Positions 32,844 to 63,983 of a stretch of DNA of 64,000 bases are shown here, piece after piece. This stretch comes from Myxococcota bacterium (GTDB lineage Bacteria > Myxococcota_A > Polyangia > HGW-17), in the NCBI GenBank assembly GCA_018817795.1, contig JAHITJ010000117.1, positions 47,501-111,500 of the forward strand, written 5' to 3'. The position numbers and the translations under genes are program-made. The first letter of the stretch is position 1. Every line of letters begins with the position of its first letter. The notes beneath the pieces were generated by a model. That model was not told where the DNA came from and did not search any database. It saw only the letters and a program-made list of their open reading frames with translations.

Positions 32844-33443
32844 TCATTGAATTGGAGACTGGGGATCCCAGGCGGTCGCGGCTGGCAGCCCCGGCAGGCG
32901 AAGGAACGAAAGCGCACGCAGCACGAGCGGCTCAATCAGTTCGTCGATGCTGCCGGGCTTCAGATAAAATCCCGGCGCGGCGGGCATGATCGTGGCTCCG
33001 GCCTCGGCCAGGGTCGCGAGATGCCGCAGGTGGTGCGACGCCAGGGGTGTCTCGCGCAGCAGCAGCACCAGCGGACGACGCTCCTTGAGGCAGACCTGCC
33101 CTGCCCGCAGCAGAAGATCGTCGGCCAGTCCCGCCGCAAGGGCCATGGCGGTGTGCAGCGAGCACGGGGCGATGACCATGCCCGCGAGCGGGAAGGATCC
33201 CGAGGCCACGCAGGCGCCTAGTTGGTCGTTCCCGTGGTGGAAGTGCGCCATGGACAGCATCGCCTCGTATTCGCCGGGAGCGCACTCCGTGGCGGCGACC
33301 TCGGCGGCCGCGGAGGAGGCCACGACATGCGTCTGTACTCCAGGCACGGCCGACAGGCACGCCAGCATGTGGCGGGCGTAGATCAGGCCGGACGCACCGC
33401 AGATGCCCACCAGGACCTGGTGATCACTTCTTTTTGGTTGCAT
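32844..33443 (-). CDS. ubiX: UbiX-type flavin prenyltransferase
   Basis: VGICGASGLIYARHMLACL; APCSLHTAMALAAGLADDLLLRAGQVCLKERRPLVLLLRETPLASHHLRHL. Confidence 0.9.
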   Translation of the reverse strand: MQPKRSDHQVLVGICGASGLIYARHMLACLSAVPGVQTHVVASSAAAEVAATECAPGEYEAMLSMAHFHHGNDQLGACVASGSFPLAGMVIAPCSLHTAMALAAGLADDLLLRAGQVCLKERRPLVLLLRETPLASHHLRHLATLAEAGATIMPAAPGFYLKPGSIDELIEPLVLRALSFLRLPGLPAATAWDPQSPIQ

Positions 33444-51984: not shown

Positions 51985-54900
51985 TCAAGGTGCCTTGATC
52001 CTGAGTTCGAACCCGTCGAGCTGGACGCCAGCTTCGGCTTCGGCCTCGTGCAGGCGGGCAGCCACGTCCTTGCCCAATTCCGGAGACGCCAGCGGATATA
52101 GCGCCGCGGCACCGGAGTAGCCAAGGATCACCGCCCGGCCACGGGGGTCAAAGGCCACATCACTGACTGCACTGCCCGGGTTGATGCGCAGCAACGGGTG
52201 GCCGCTGTCCACCTCCCAGACGATGGCCGATCCGTCATCGCTCCCCGTGACGACCCGTTTCCCGTCGGGCGAGAAGGCCACGCGGTTGACCCACTGCCTG
52301 TGTCCCAAAAAGCGCCGCACCGGAAGCCATTTGTCCGTGTTCCACAGAATCCCGGTATGGTCCTTGCTCACGCTGAGCAGATGATGACCATCAGACGAGA
52401 ACGTCACGTCCGAGACCCAGTCGGTGTGACCTTCCAGCACGCGGACAAGCTTTTTCGACGCAACCTCGAACACGCGCACCCGGCGATCAAAGCTCGCTGT
52501 GGCGAGCCACCGTCCGTCCGGCGAGAACGCCACGCCATGAACGAACCCTCCATGATCCTCGAACACGTGGATCATCCTGCCGGTCCTGGCATCCCACAGA
52601 CGCGCATGGCGATCGTGGGAAACGCTGGCCAGCAGCGTGCCGTCGGGCGAAAAACTGACGCTTGTCAGCGGCGCCTTGTGGCCCTCGAGAACTTGGAGAA
52701 TCCCTCCGGTGGCCGCGTCCCAGATCCGGATCGTGCGGTCGTAGCCACAGGAGGCGATCCGCGCGCCGTCGGGTGAATACGACACACCGATCACGCCGTC
52801 GGTGTGGCCCTCGAGCACGCGCAGCAGCGCCCCGGTGCTGCGATCCGAGATCCGCACGGTGTGGTCCCATCCGGCGGTGACGATGCGCGTGCCGTCCGGA
52901 GAAAAGTCCAGGTGGTAGACACCGTTGGGATGCGGGATGCGGATGATCCCGTCTCCGGAGCTGGTCCGCCAGATCTGGAGGGTGCCGTCCTGGGAGGCGG
53001 AGAAGACGCGACGCCCGTCGGGCGTGAACCCAAGTGCATGGACCGCGTCGGTATGCCCCTCCACCGATGAGACGAGCTCGCCGGTGCTCGCGTCCCACAG
53101 CCTGACGCTGCGGTCGAATCCGCCACTGACGAGCAGCTGGCCGTCTGAGGAGAACGCAAGGGTTATCACCCCGTCTCGCCCTCGGGACATCTCGGAGATC
53201 GGCGCGCCGGTCCCCGTGTCCCACAGCCGGATGACGCCATCATAGGCGCCGGTGGCAAGCTTCTTTCCGTCAGGCGAGAAAGCCACGGCATAGACGCCTT
53301 GGCCGGGCACGGCCAGGCTCAGGCGAACCTTTCCGCCGGCCACCTCGATGATTCGCGCGGTCTTGTCCCAGCTGCCCGTGGCCAGGAAGCGGCCGTCCGG
53401 CGTAAACGACAGGGTCCGAACCTCGTCGGTGTGCCCCGGCAGGACGATCCCGGCCGCCCCCGTGACCGCGTCCCATACCCTCACGGCGCCGGAGTCATGG
53501 CCCGAGACGATGGTCCGACCGTCGGGCGACCAGGCCAGGGATTTGACATCACCGACAGAGGGGATCCCTGCCACCGCCCGACCGGTGCGGGCCTCGCGGA
53601 TCAGGATCTTGTCGGCCGCGCCGCCCACGGCGATGCGGGTGCCGTCAGGAGACCAGGCTACGGCAGATGCACGCTGGAGCATGACGCGCTCCCGGAACAA
53701 CTCCGCACCGGTGTCGAGGTTCCAGACCGAGAGATATCCACCCTGGTCACAGAGCGCAACCTGCCGGCCTTCCCGCGAGAGCGCTGCGCCGAGCACCGGT
53801 CCCGAGACGACGACGGAGCGTTCCAGGCTCCGGATATGACGGAACTGGGTGCGATAGAGCACCGAGATTGCTTCCATCCGGGGACGGTCGGCGTCCTGGT
53901 CGCCTCCGTGAAAGGTGCTGTCCGCGCTAAGGCTTCCCGGGTGAGCCGGATTATGCAGCAGCGAGGCCAGCGCGTGGATCCGCGCCGCGAGCATCTGCCG
54001 CTCGTCGACCAGCCGCACCGCCTGCTGGACGTGGGCACGCGCCAGGTTGTACTCCGAGTCGAGGTGCGCAACCCGTTCCCGTGCGCGGGAATCGGCTTCC
54101 TTGCGCCAGGCCAGCGACACCACCACCAGCGCGGTGACGATCACAGCCAGGATCGCGGCAGCGGCCGTCAGCACAGCCTTGTTCCGGGCCGCAAAGCGCT
54201 TGAAGAGCTCCCATGAACTGTAGGAATGGGCCTGCACCCGCCCACCGGTCATATAGGCCGTGATGTCCACGGCCAGCTCCCGCGCAGAACCGTAACGCAA
54301 CGACCGATCGCGCTCGAGGCACTTCATGGCAATGCCTGCCAGCTCCGGCGGCGCCTCCCTGCAGAGTTCGCTCACGGGACGCACCGGCTCGGTGAGAACC
54401 TGACCAAGCACCACCGCGACGTTCTCTCCGTCGAAAGGCGGGCGGCCGGTCAGCAGTTCGTACAGCACCGCCCCCAGCCCCCACACGTCGGAGCGCTCGT
54501 CCATCTCAGAGACAGCGCCGCGGGCCTGCTCGGGGCTCATGTACCAGGGAGTACCCATGGCCGATCCGTCGAGGGTCGCATCGCCGGCTCCGGAGAGCCC
54601 TGCCAATGGAAGCGCGGAACCGGCGACGGGAGGCTCTGGATCGAGAGATTCCTTCTTGATACCTGCAGAAAGCCCTTCGGAACCGCGCAGTTCCTCTGCG
54701 CCGCGCAGTTCCTCTGCGCCGCGCAGTTCCTCTGCCCCCCTGGACTTGGCCAGTCCCCAGTCGAGGACCACCGTCTCGCCGAACTCGCCGACCATGATGT
54801 TGCCTGGCTTGAGATCGCGATGGATGACCCCCTGATCGTGTGCGTAGGCCATGGCGTTGCACACGTCCCAGAACGCACCCAGAAGCTTCTGGCGTTCGGT

Positions 54901-58811: not shown

Positions 58812-58995
58812 GAACAACTCCTGCGGCGGTTTCGCGACGCGGGCAATTATACTCACCGCAAAACCGGAAATCACCTGGATTGTTTCAATGGACCGGAATG
58901 CAGAAAAACGGTTGACAGGGCGTGAAAAATCCTGAAAGTGTTTGTGGGGTGGATTCTTTGATGATTATCATACGTCCTTCCCCGGGATTGGTGTC

Positions 58996-60024
58996 ATGAG
59001 CAACTACGTGGGTCGCGAAATACTTCTGGTCATGCAGGACAATGCAACGGCCAAGAACATCCAGTCCGCCTTCATGAACCTGGGCTTCTGGATCACGGTC
59101 TCATCGGATCTCAAGTCCATACTGGATCTGCTCGACAACAAGTTCTTCGTCGGCGCCATTCTGGAGCAGGACACGCCCAAGCCGGGGTACGGTTTGAAGC
59201 TGGCCCAGAAGATCATCGAGGTCTCCCCGCTGACGGCCACCTACCTCGTGTCGCCCAATCCCGACTTTCCGGCGCTGCTGCAAGCCCATCGCATGGGTCT
59301 CAAGGACTTCGTCCAGCTCGAGGGGGAGTTCCTGCCGTACCTCGTCGGCAGCGTGCGCAAGGCCGCCGAGGAGCTGGAGCACTCCGGCGAACGGGACCGC
59401 CTGCTCAAGGACATGGCCAACCTGCACGGCAAGTTCCTCAAGCAGATGATATCCCTGCACATCAAGTTGATGGAGTCCGAGGAGTCCGCACGCTACCGCG
59501 ATGGCGTGCCCGACGAGGAGCTGCCGCCGTGCAAGGTGCTCATCGTCGATCCCGACGCCACCGTGGCCGAACAACTGCGCGAGCGGATCACCGAGACCGG
59601 CGGCTGGCAGATCACCCATTTGACGTGGGGTGGCGAGGCGCTGGACTTCGGCACCGAAGGGGCCTTCCACATCGCGCTGATCTGCCGGAGCCTGCCGGAT
59701 CTGCCCGGCACCATGGTCTTTCAGACGCTCAAGTCCGACGAGTCCGATGCCAACGTCTTCCTCTTCGATCACGACCAGAAGCAGGCCGGCAGCCTTCTGC
59801 TGTTTGAAAACTCCGTATCCCAGGAGCTGCCGCTGCAGGTGCAGGACGCCGATGACCTGCTCGGCCGGCTGCGCGACCTGCGCCGGATGATGGACACCTC
59901 GTACAAGAAGAAGGAACACCTCAAGACCTTCAAGGCGCAACACTACGACTTCCTGCAGGAATACCAGCGCGTCCAGTTCAAGATGAAGAAAGTGATGCAG
60001 GGGGATGACAAGCCCGAGACTTGA
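58996..60024 (+). CDS. Two-receiver-domain (REC-like) protein with degenerate phosphoacceptor sites
   Basis: VGREILLVMQDNATAKNIQSAFMNLGFWI...VGAILEQDTPKPGYGLKLAQKI; CKVLIVDPDATVAEQLRERITETGGW...IALICRSLPDLPGTMVFQTL. Confidence 0.7.
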   Translation: MSNYVGREILLVMQDNATAKNIQSAFMNLGFWITVSSDLKSILDLLDNKFFVGAILEQDTPKPGYGLKLAQKIIEVSPLTATYLVSPNPDFPALLQAHRMGLKDFVQLEGEFLPYLVGSVRKAAEELEHSGERDRLLKDMANLHGKFLKQMISLHIKLMESEESARYRDGVPDEELPPCKVLIVDPDATVAEQLRERITETGGWQITHLTWGGEALDFGTEGAFHIALICRSLPDLPGTMVFQTLKSDESDANVFLFDHDQKQAGSLLLFENSVSQELPLQVQDADDLLGRLRDLRRMMDTSYKKKEHLKTFKAQHYDFLQEYQRVQFKMKKVMQGDDKPET

Positions 60025-61249
60025 TTTCCGTTCGTATCTGGACTTCCTCGCCTGCCCTCAGCTTTTCCCGCTTCCCACGGCCGAGAGCCGGGGCCTGGCC
60101 CTGTGCGACCGCTCCGGGGCCTTTTTGACCGCGCCCGGGCCGTCGGGCTTTCGCGCCGCGGCCCACCTCCTGGGCGACCGCACCCGGCTCGAGCGCTTCC
60201 TGGGCGTCGACGACCTCGGTCGCGCGCTGGCCGACGCCATGGACCGGCCCGTGCCGCCACAGCCGGGCGACCCCGCCACCCATCAGGAGCGCACCACCTT
60301 CGACCTGCGCGAGCTGGGCGCCTTTTCGCTTCCCGGCCTGCCGCTCTCGGACTACCTGACCTCGGCGGTGGTGTTCGCCCCCGCGGGCGACGGCGACGTG
60401 AACCTCTCGATCCACCGCGCCCGCGTCCTGGACGCCACCCACCTGGTGCTGCGCGTCGTGCCGCGGCACCTGCACCGGCTGCTGACCGCAGCCGGCGGAC
60501 GCCTGCGCGCGGCCATCGCCTTCGGCGTCGATCCGGCCGTCTCGTTTGCGGCCTCGGTGTCGCTGCCCGCGCCCGGTGGGGAGCTGGCCGTGGCCGGCGG
60601 GCTGGGCCGCGCACCGGTGACCGTCTTTTCAACCCACGGACTGATCCTGCCTGCCTCCTTCGAGTGCCTCCTGATCGGGGAGTTCACCGGTCAGACCGCG
60701 CCCGAGGGTCCGTTCATCGACCTGACCGGCACGGTCGATCCCGTCCGCGAGCAGCCCGTGTTCCGCACCGACCTCATGCTGGTGCGGGAGCACGCCGTGA
60801 TCCCGATGATCCTGCCGTCCTCCTCCGAGCACGCATTACTCATGGGCCTGGCCCGCGAGGCCGGCGTGGGCCGTGCCCTGCGCCCGCTTTACGACGACGA
60901 GCCCCGGGTGCGCCTGAGCGCCGGCGGGTCCGGCTGGCTGCACTGCGTCGTGTCGGGCACCTCGAAGGCCCCCGCCGCGCGGATCGCCGACGCCGCCTTC
61001 ACCGCACACGCCTCGTGCAAGCGCCTGACGCTCATCGACGCCGACCTCGACCCGGACGACCCCGTGGCCGTCGAGTGGGCGCTGGCGACCCGTTTCCAGG
61101 CCGATCACGACCTGATCGTGCGCCCCGGCGAGCACGGCTCCACCCTCGATCCCTCCTCCGACGCCGGCGTCACCGCCCGCTGGGTCCTCGACGCCCGCTG
61201 CCCGCCCGACCGCGACCGCGCCCTGTTCACGCGGCTGCTGGATCTCTGA
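60005..61249 (+). CDS. UbiD-family decarboxylase, proposed anhydromevalonate-phosphate decarboxylase
   Basis: UbiD-like architecture: LLIGEFTGQTAPEGPFIDLTGTVDPVREQPVFRTDLMLVREHAVIPMILPSSSEHALLMGLAREA; context with AcnX and IPK. Confidence 0.85.
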   Translation: MTSPRLDFRSYLDFLACPQLFPLPTAESRGLALCDRSGAFLTAPGPSGFRAAAHLLGDRTRLERFLGVDDLGRALADAMDRPVPPQPGDPATHQERTTFDLRELGAFSLPGLPLSDYLTSAVVFAPAGDGDVNLSIHRARVLDATHLVLRVVPRHLHRLLTAAGGRLRAAIAFGVDPAVSFAASVSLPAPGGELAVAGGLGRAPVTVFSTHGLILPASFECLLIGEFTGQTAPEGPFIDLTGTVDPVREQPVFRTDLMLVREHAVIPMILPSSSEHALLMGLAREAGVGRALRPLYDDEPRVRLSAGGSGWLHCVVSGTSKAPAARIADAAFTAHASCKRLTLIDADLDPDDPVAVEWALATRFQADHDLIVRPGEHGSTLDPSSDAGVTARWVLDARCPPDRDRALFTRLLDL

Positions 61250-62467
61250 ATGGACCGCACCCTCCCGCTCTTTGCGCTGCCCGTGATCGGCGACACCCCG
61301 GCGCACACCCGGGCGCTGCATCTGATCACGGCCCTGTGCCGGGTCCGGCGCACCGACCGCGTCGTGCCCGTGGCGTCGGCCCACATCAGCGGCGTCTCGT
61401 ACTGGAACCTAGGACCGGCGGGCCTCGAATACCTCGACGAGCTCGCCGCCACCGGCCGCGTGCGGGTGCCGTCCACGCTCAACCCCTGCGCGTTCATGCC
61501 GTCGGCGCCGCCCCCCTGGGTGACCGAAGACGACGCGCGGCTGCAGGCCCGCGTGCTGGCGGCCTACGAGGCCATGGGCGTCACCATGTCCTGCACCTGC
61601 GCGCCGTACCTGACGCAGCCGGCGCCGCTGTTCGGCACGCACCTGGCCTGGGCCGAGAGCTCGGCGGTCACGGTCGCCAACTCCCTGCTGGGCGCCCGCA
61701 CCGAACGGGAGGGCGGCCCCGGCGCCCTGGCCGCGGCCCTGTGCGGCTTCACGCCGTACACCGGGCTGCACCTCGACGCCAACCGCCGGCCCCGCGTCGG
61801 CGTGCGCGTCACGGCCCGGCTCGACGAGCCGGTTCGCATGGGCCTGCTGGGCGCCTGGTATGGCCGCGTGCTGGGAAACGCCGTCCCGCAGTTTCTCTTC
61901 GACGGTCCTTGCGAGCCCACCCGCACCGGCTGGCAGGCGCTGTGCGCGGCGATCATCACCTACGGCGGACCCGCGCTGTTCCATGTGGTCGAGCGCACCC
62001 CCGAGGCCGCCGCCTTCCCCACCCTGCCCGCGCAGGTCACCGTCTCCGACGCCGACCTCGACGACGAGGCCGCACGCCTGACCGATCTGCAGCCCGGCGA
62101 GGGCGTCGACCTGGTCTTCTCCGGCTGTCCGCATCCGGTGGCCGGCACGCAGGCCTGCTTCTTCCATCGCGACGTTCCCGTCGCCGAGGTTGCCGGAAAC
62201 GCTCCCTGGACCCTGCTGGCGGCCCCTGCCGACGCTGGAACGTCGGTTCATGCCGACGCTGGAACGTCGGTTCAAGCCGGCCGCATCCTGACCCTCCCGG
62301 GAGGCTGTCCTGCCGTGTCCCCGCTGCCCCCGGAGGTGAAGACCATCGTCACCGACTCGGCCAAGGCCGCCTTCTACCTGCGCTCACGCGGCTACCGGGT
62401 CGGGCTCGCTCCCACGCAGCGCTGTGTGGAGCTGGGCTCCACGGGGAGGTGGCCCCATGCGACTTGA
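61250..62467 (+). CDS. Aconitase-X large subunit, proposed phosphomevalonate dehydratase large subunit
   Basis: MGVTMSCTCAPYLTQPAPLFGTHLAWAESSAVTVANSLLGARTEREGGPGALAAALCGFTPYTGLHLDANRRP; VFSGCPHP cluster-Cys motif. Confidence 0.92.
   Translation: MDRTLPLFALPVIGDTPAHTRALHLITALCRVRRTDRVVPVASAHISGVSYWNLGPAGLEYLDELAATGRVRVPSTLNPCAFMPSAPPPWVTEDDARLQARVLAAYEAMGVTMSCTCAPYLTQPAPLFGTHLAWAESSAVTVANSLLGARTEREGGPGALAAALCGFTPYTGLHLDANRRPRVGVRVTARLDEPVRMGLLGAWYGRVLGNAVPQFLFDGPCEPTRTGWQALCAAIITYGGPALFHVVERTPEAAAFPTLPAQVTVSDADLDDEAARLTDLQPGEGVDLVFSGCPHPVAGTQACFFHRDVPVAEVAGNAPWTLLAAPADAGTSVHADAGTSVQAGRILTLPGGCPAVSPLPPEVKTIVTDSAKAAFYLRSRGYRVGLAPTQRCVELGSTGRWPHAT
62227..62274 (+). repeat. Exact 24-bp tandem duplication (8 codons) inside AcnX-L
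   Basis: tgccgacgctggaacgtcggttca twice, each with CCGACG-ctggaa-CGTCGG inverted repeat. Confidence 0.97.
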
Positions 62468-63983
62468 AGGGCTCCGCCTCACCGAGGGCGCCGCCTCCGG
62501 CCGCCTGCTGGTCCTGACCGCTCCGCTGTCGTTCTACGGCGGCGTGGATCCGGAGACCGGCGTCCTGGTGCAGGCCGGTCACCCGCAGCATGGCACGTGC
62601 CTGAGCGGACGCATCCTGGCGCTGCCCCACACGTCGGGTTCCACCGTCGGCTCCTGGACGCTACTGCGCATGGCCAGGGTCGGCACCGCCCCCGCGGCCA
62701 TCGTCTCGGCCACCGCCGACGCGGTCCTGGTCACGGGCACCATCGCCGGCGGCATCGTGCATCTGGACGGCATCACCGTGAACGCCGCGCTGGACGGCTG
62801 CGACGCGGTGATCCCGGAGGAAGGTGCGTGGTTGGAAGTGACGGACTGCGGCGACGTGATGAACCGGCCCCCTTTGGCGGGCGCCTCAGGTGGCCGGCCG
62901 GACTCGCACCGAGTCCGCACGCCGGGCATGAGTCCTGCGCCTGAAACGGCACAACCTGCTCCCGGGTCCCCGAAAGCCGGCGGAATCGTCAACGATTCCG
63001 CAAGCGATCGTCCCCGGTCGCCCGACCGTCCCCGGTCGCCTGTGATTGTCAAGCTCGGGGGTTCGCTGATCACCTTCAAGCAAAGCCCGGTGCCCCGGGT
63101 GGACTTCGACCAGCTCGGGAAGCTGGCGCGGCTCCTGGCCGCCAACCTGAAGGCGCCGGCGGTGATCCTGCACGGCGCGGGCTCCTTCGGGCACGGCCCG
63201 GTGGCCCGCGCGGGTGTGCTGGCAAGAGCCCTCGACGACGACGCGCGGCGCGACTGGGGCCGCATCTCTTCCCTGCAGTACCAACTTTCGGCCATCGTCT
63301 GCGAGGCCCTGGCCGACGCAGGTCTGCCGGTGTTCCCGTTCCAGGCCTCGGCCATGGGACACCTCGAAGGCGGCCGCTTCGTCATCACCGACATCGACGC
63401 CCTGCGCCGCGCGCTTTTGGCCGGCTTCATCCCGGTGCTCTACGGCACGCCGTGCTTCTCCGGTGATCCCACCCGCCCCGGCATCGCTTCGGGCGACGAC
63501 CTGGCGCCAGCCCTGGCTTTGGCGATGGGTTACTCGCGCATCGTGCACCTGACCGACGTCGCCGGCGTGCACGCCGAGGATCCGCGGAAAAACCCCGCCG
63601 CCCCCGTGATCCCGTGGATCACGGCAGCAGACGACTCCACAGACCTGCCGCCGTCCTCGGGGTCCTGTCGTCCGACCGGTCCGACGGTCGGCTGGACACC
63701 CCCGTCGTTTGCTGACGCAAGCAGCCGGGGGGCCCCCACCGACGCCCCCCCTCGGCCTTCCGACGGACTCACCCTCATGGTCACTTCCCACCGCTCCGAC
63801 GCGGCCACAGCCACCACCACAACCGACTTCGACGTCACCGGTGAGATGGCCGGCAAGGTGAAAAAACTCCTCGACGTAGCAGCCGAGGGCGTCACCTCGT
63901 GGATCGTCGACGGACGCGACGAGGCGGCGGTCGCTGCCGCGCTGGCCGGGCTCCCTGCGGGCACGGTGGTGGGTGGGAAGTGA
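62457..63983 (+). CDS. Fusion protein: aconitase-X small (swivel) domain + isopentenyl phosphate kinase
   Basis: N-term GGVDPETGVLVQAGHPQHGTCLSGRILALPHTSGSTVGSWTLLRMARVGTAPAAIVSATADAVLVTG; C-term VIVKLGGSLITFK..VILHGAGSFGHGPVA..IASGDDLAPALALAMGYSRIVHLTDVAGVH..DVTGEMAGKV. Confidence 0.9.
   Translation: MRLEGLRLTEGAASGRLLVLTAPLSFYGGVDPETGVLVQAGHPQHGTCLSGRILALPHTSGSTVGSWTLLRMARVGTAPAAIVSATADAVLVTGTIAGGIVHLDGITVNAALDGCDAVIPEEGAWLEVTDCGDVMNRPPLAGASGGRPDSHRVRTPGMSPAPETAQPAPGSPKAGGIVNDSASDRPRSPDRPRSPVIVKLGGSLITFKQSPVPRVDFDQLGKLARLLAANLKAPAVILHGAGSFGHGPVARAGVLARALDDDARRDWGRISSLQYQLSAIVCEALADAGLPVFPFQASAMGHLEGGRFVITDIDALRRALLAGFIPVLYGTPCFSGDPTRPGIASGDDLAPALALAMGYSRIVHLTDVAGVHAEDPRKNPAAPVIPWITAADDSTDLPPSSGSCRPTGPTVGWTPPSFADASSRGAPTDAPPRPSDGLTLMVTSHRSDAATATTTTDFDVTGEMAGKVKKLLDVAAEGVTSWIVDGRDEAAVAAALAGLPAGTVVGGK
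62981..63000 (+). repeat. Perfect 9-bp-stem palindrome in the AcnX-S/IPK linker
   Basis: CGGAATCGT-CA-ACGATTCCG. Confidence 0.95.
63005..63040 (+). repeat. 18-bp tandem repeat x2 in the AcnX-S/IPK linker
   Basis: cgatcgtccccggtcgcc / cgaccgtccccggtcgcc (one mismatch), encodes DRPRSPDRPRSP. Confidence 0.95.

Follow-up and report, generated by a model that had tools for sequence, protein, structure and literature searches.

Here, we report that a three-gene block in a bacterial genome very probably forms the lower half of an archaeal-type modified mevalonate pathway and serves as the main route of this bacterium to IPP. The block encodes a UbiD-family decarboxylase, an aconitase-X large subunit (AcnX_L) and an AcnX small (swivel) domain (AcnX_S) fused to IPK, and lies in the window, i.e., the whole stretch of 64,000 nucleotides that was analysed. 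The pathway reading is based on gene content, residue conservation, phylogeny, gene order and the absence of markers of other routes; from these we infer every catalytic activity, the type of the iron-sulfur cluster, any channelling by the fusion and essentiality.

The block and its gene models

An earlier note on this DNA had placed the three genes on the forward strand at 60005-63983, where the reading frames were indeed located, and the identities that it proposed were confirmed by profile and structure-database searches (Table 1). The first frame matches the UbiD (4.5e-33) and UbiD_C (1.3e-17) profiles and carries the EGPF-[IVL]-D motif that is common to UbiD proteins linked with AcnX in archaea and Chloroflexota. 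AcnX_L matches the AcnX profile with 1.7e-87 and begins at the base right after the end of UbiD (61249 to 61250). The third frame extends over 62424-63983 on the forward strand in the reading-frame listing, its gene likely starting at the ATG at 62457 and overlapping the stop of AcnX_L; the fused protein matches both AcnX_swivel (3.3e-25) and AA_kinase (1.2e-25), and its IPK domain scores 136.8 bits with NF040647 (cut-off 120). The IPK domain keeps the catalytic histidine motif HGAGSFGH, its closest solved structure is the archaeal IPK 3ll9, and the best Foldseek matches of its model are all archaeal IPK. In the structural model of the fusion, two confident domains are joined by a low-confidence linker.

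Table 1 Features of the block and of related genes (positions in the window)
Feature	Position	Strand	Evidence or remark
Response-regulator-like protein, 360 aa, overlapping the UbiD start	58942..60024	+	PF00072 1.5e-8
UbiD decarboxylase	60005..61249	+	PF01977, PF20696; EGPF-I-D motif; tree
AcnX large subunit, putative catalytic subunit of phosphomevalonate dehydratase	61250..62467	+	PF04412; 7cnr_A; residues; tree; Foldseek
In-frame repeat of 24 bp within AcnX_L (ADAGTSV-type units)	62227..62279	+	low-confidence loop in model
Swivel domain (AcnX_S) in the fusion protein; GSTVG substrate loop	62457..62860	+	PF01989 3.3e-25; 7cnr_B; Ser-Thr-Val conserved
IPK domain of the fused protein	63039..63983	+	NF040647; 3ll9; HGAGSFGH and KLGGSLIT motifs; Foldseek
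Low-confidence insert in the IPK domain	about 63636-63830	+	structure model
UbiX flavin prenyltransferase, putative prenyl-FMN supplier to UbiD	32844..33443	-	TIGR00421 159.5 bits, cut-off 108.9

The response-regulator-like protein is conserved immediately ahead of UbiD across family f1, with homologues preceding UbiD in G001, G003, G004, G005 and G006, and might be a regulator of the operon. The 24-bp repeat of AcnX_L is longer in the sister genome (G001) than in the window. An in-frame 18-bp tandem repeat is also found in a protein kinase gene of the window, at 54683-54735.

The block sits at the end of its contig (C245, 111,500 bases, the last of which is the window end), and the G+C content rises from about 64% in the surroundings to 71-74% in 60005-63983 and in the HMGR gene on contig C186 (L001), the step being mostly at the first and second codon positions. 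The location at a contig end and the jump from about 64% to 73% at the block start could be read as foreign DNA mis-binned or mis-assembled on a bacterial contig, which we regard as next to impossible. In the sister genome, the block genes are 87-98% identical and have the same neighbors, with the response-regulator gene upstream and the kinase gene close by; since both genes and neighbors are shared, the block is not a chimera, and this synteny rejects mis-binning and mis-assembly alike. The same cluster is, moreover, present through the order, in genomes of 39 to 77% G+C, where its G+C content usually exceeds that of the flanking DNA by a few percent. That a recent transfer caused the G+C step is unsupported, most relatives showing a step in the same direction but smaller.

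Type of the AcnX protein

A hydroxyproline dehydratase is an alternative identity of AcnX_L, and the sole NCBIfam model matched by AcnX_L is in fact that of the C3LHyp dehydratase; the score of 162 bits, however, is far below the cut-off of 700. L144, a hydroxyproline-like bacterial AcnX of the same phylum, reaches 405 bits with the hydroxyproline model and differs at several of the cysteine and substrate contact positions described below. Among solved structures, the large subunit of Thermococcus kodakarensis AcnX (7cnr_A) is the closest to the window AcnX_L with 7e-59, much nearer than the hydroxyproline dehydratases with 3e-37 to 3e-38; 7cnr_A is also the top Foldseek match of the AlphaFold model of AcnX_L (mean pLDDT 78), and the small subunit of the same enzyme, 7cnr_B, is the closest solved structure to AcnX_S.

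The residues point to the same type. In the phosphomevalonate dehydratase of A. pernix, the [4Fe-4S] ligands are Cys122, Cys297 and Cys356, and the type I hydroxyproline enzymes are without a cysteine at the second of these positions (Cys297) and carry a "site C" cysteine instead (Komeyama 2023, PMC10040528). The window AcnX_L has Cys117 at site A, Cys293 at site 1 and Cys353 at site B, with alanine (A355) at site C, unlike the hydroxyproline type; these three cysteines would be its Fe-S ligands. All tested contacts of T. kodakarensis AcnX with mevalonate 5-phosphate (Watanabe 2021, PMC8184944) are kept, i.e., G48-V49-S50, N53, N78, E136-S137-S138, K372 and Y376 in AcnX_L and the S-T-V contact in the small domain, as they are in nearly all archaeal and Chloroflexota rows of the alignment. 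Hydroxyproline-type AcnX and the window AcnX_L have the aconitase-X fold in common and differ in the cysteine set and the substrate residues.

In the AcnX tree, AcnX_L nests within the archaeal-type AcnX, separated from the C3LHyp-type outgroup with a support of 100/100; clustering with the hydroxyproline clade, which the earlier note had named as evidence against its reading, was not seen. Please note that the exact placement of the family f1 sequences is less secure because of their long branches. The conserved linkage of AcnX_L to UbiD, IPK, HMGR, mevalonate kinase and idi2 also speaks against a hydroxyproline dehydratase. We consider this identity extremely improbable and reject it on the model score, the structure match, the cysteine set and the tree; as judged by its sequence, the window AcnX_L is of the phosphomevalonate dehydratase type.

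Pathway context and competing IPP routes

Several further enzymes of the pathway are encoded in the same genome (G000). UbiX is inside the window, HMGR is on contig C186, and mevalonate kinase adjoins the type 2 IPP isomerase (idi2) on contig C63; the scores of mevalonate kinase, idi2 and HMGR are slightly below the NCBIfam cut-offs. Gene searches did not find HMG-CoA synthase in this 88%-complete assembly; a bacterial-type HMG-CoA synthase over the cut-off is carried by the sister genome, and six further genomes of the order have matches. Each of the genomes G000 to G009 has exactly one GHMP kinase, which in G000 and G009 is the mevalonate kinase, so that no phosphomevalonate kinase was found there. 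Of the pathway genes that the earlier note had proposed to seek beyond the window end, where the contig stops, HMGR, mevalonate kinase and idi2 are present elsewhere in the window genome, and HMG-CoA synthase and phosphomevalonate kinase were not found.

Markers of other IPP routes are mostly missing. Gene searches of the 88%-complete window genome gave neither of the MEP markers dxr and ispH, so that a complete MEP pathway, which would have spoken against the archaeal-type route, was not seen; of the 13 genomes of the order, 11 lack ispH and 10 lack dxr, the dxr match of G001 being a 34-residue fragment that was left uncounted. In the same search, control genomes with the MEP pathway did give dxr and ispH matches. 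Diphosphomevalonate decarboxylase (TIGR01240) is absent in 12 of the 13 genomes, including the window genome, the exception being a weak 118-bit match in G009 (L179 on contig C229) below the curated cut-off. This decarboxylase-like protein coexists in G009 with a complete archaeal-type operon. The Chloroflexota/haloarchaeal variant of the pathway uses phosphomevalonate decarboxylase and IPK (PMC3857490); IPK is shared with it, whereas its GHMP-family decarboxylase was not found in the window genome.

The order is not uniform, though. In family f4, the genomes G011 and G012 contain ispH and dxr together with UbiD-AcnX_L (L024, L025, L033, L034, L137, L138, L174), and G011 additionally carries idi2-HMGR-MVK; in this family, neither AcnX_S nor IPK was seen next to AcnX_L. 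Both IPP routes may possibly operate in one cell there, and the presence of ispH and dxr in f4 means that the archaeal-type route is not the sole route everywhere in the order. This family lends some weight to another reading of the genes, namely that they serve isoprenyl-monophosphate salvage or a side product while IPP comes mainly from another route, as does the occurrence of IPK outside full pathways. We find this reading very unlikely: the MEP markers were found neither in the window genome nor in ten further genomes of the order, the remaining mevalonate route is present, and AcnX occurs throughout the order.

The proposal of the earlier note that the bacterium makes or salvages IPP by the archaeal-type route is supported by the presence of HMGR and mevalonate kinase, the failure to find dxr and ispH, and the AcnX type. 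In the proposed pathway, mevalonate would come from a bacterial-type upper half, with a class II HMGR and the bacterial-type HMG-CoA synthase seen in relatives, and would be converted to mevalonate 5-phosphate by the mevalonate kinase on C63. The AcnX_L/AcnX_S dehydratase, with a putative [4Fe-4S] cluster on three cysteines, would produce trans-anhydromevalonate 5-phosphate, which UbiD, using prenyl-FMN from UbiX, would decarboxylate to isopentenyl phosphate. The IPK domain would then phosphorylate isopentenyl phosphate to IPP, and the type 2 isomerase would convert IPP to DMAPP.

Distribution, origins and relation to known systems

We surveyed AcnX in 13 genomes of the order with the Pfam cut-off. 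Matches occur in all 13, of which 12 are over the cut-off; G002 (70% complete) has a weak match only, unsupported by the order's own profile. Elsewhere in the class, strong AcnX matches are found in family f15 (four genomes), G389, G450, G510 and G527, in most of which UbiD, AcnX_L, AcnX_S and IPK are grouped together. G009 has an unbroken operon idi2-HMGR-MVK-UbiD-AcnX_L-AcnX_S-IPK, and in G450 about 8 kb of a single strand hold idi2, MVK, HMGR, UbiD, AcnX_L and AcnX_S. The host phylum of the relatives is taken from database labels, "Myxococcota" or "Deltaproteobacteria": the relatives with sequences identical to JAHJMN010000120.1 (G004) and JAOZUO010000177.1 (G009) are labelled "Myxococcota bacterium" and "Deltaproteobacteria bacterium", respectively.

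AcnX_S and IPK are in one frame in the window genome, G001, G003, G004, G005, G007 and G010, i.e., in families f1 and f3; in G007, the fused frame is 2357/2375-3625 of L027 (two start codons, one frame). The two occupy separate frames in families f2 and f15, in G527 and in those archaeal and Chloroflexota loci that contain both. No fusion was seen in 12 Chloroflexota AcnX loci, IPK being visible in two of the 12. The fusion would join the small subunit of the dehydratase to the enzyme acting two steps later, and may allow channelling between them.

The AcnX data are compatible with a single origin of the core, made up of the order, family f15 and G527 (p = 0.147), and in the UbiD and IPK trees the core Myxococcota-related rows are on one side of a single branch, with supports of 98 and 99. 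One origin for all strong AcnX of the class is rejected (p = 5e-54): the AcnX of G389, G450 and G510 group with Hadarchaea, Methanomicrobia and Thermoplasmata, so judging from the trees the class holds another archaeal-type AcnX clade, of separate derivation. The UbiD and IPK trees concur with AcnX on both the core and this second group. The loci of this second clade are L205 (G450), L206 (G389) and L204 (G510), and their UbiD adjoins Hadarchaea in the tree. A clade uniting the core AcnX with Chloroflexota AcnX is also rejected (p = 0.0001 and 0.002).

The archaeal modified mevalonate pathway was reported from Aeropyrum pernix (Hayakawa 2018, as cited in PMC10040528), and in 2023 the route was described as unique to archaea (PMC10040528). 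It has AcnX_L and AcnX_S, UbiD with UbiX, IPK, type 2 isomerase and mevalonate kinase in common with the system described here, and the gene order UbiD-AcnX_L-AcnX_S of the window is common in archaea. The present system differs in its bacterial host, in the class II HMGR and the bacterial-type HMG-CoA synthase, and in the AcnX_S-IPK fusion of f1 and f3. According to a passage of a 2026 review (PMC13001223), some Chloroflexota have the archaeal-type pathway; the work cited there, Kanno 2024, concerns by its title the archaeal mevalonate pathway of Candidatus Promineifilum breve, a bacterium with an archaeal-type route, as here, in a different phylum. Chloroflexota were the sole bacterial case that we found cited in the literature searched, and no paper linking IPK with Myxococcota was found. 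Ornatilinea apprima P3M-1 (L079), a named Chloroflexota strain, carries UbiD-AcnX_L-AcnX_S and is a candidate for testing the route.

Inter-domain transfer or an unrecognised bacterial distribution had been suggested for the block; the latter is partly right, in that the block is an order-wide trait with relatives elsewhere in the class, but an archaeal pathway in a Chloroflexota bacterium was already published in 2024. What is new is the host lineage, the order-wide use with MEP markers missing in most members, the fusion of AcnX_S with IPK, and a further origin within the class. It is probable, in our judgment, that in most of the order the archaeal dehydratase route took the place of the MEP pathway while a bacterial upper half was kept, that two families fused AcnX_S to IPK, which may tie dehydratase, decarboxylase and kinase in one complex, and that archaeal AcnX entered the class on two or more occasions, separately from Chloroflexota. 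The finding affects pathway annotation, the hydroxyproline model being the only NCBIfam model that these AcnX proteins match, and the natural fusion of a dehydratase subunit with a kinase could be studied and used to engineer a cheaper route to isoprenoids. Order-wide use in a second, distant bacterial group bears on when and how mevalonate routes passed between the domains of life.
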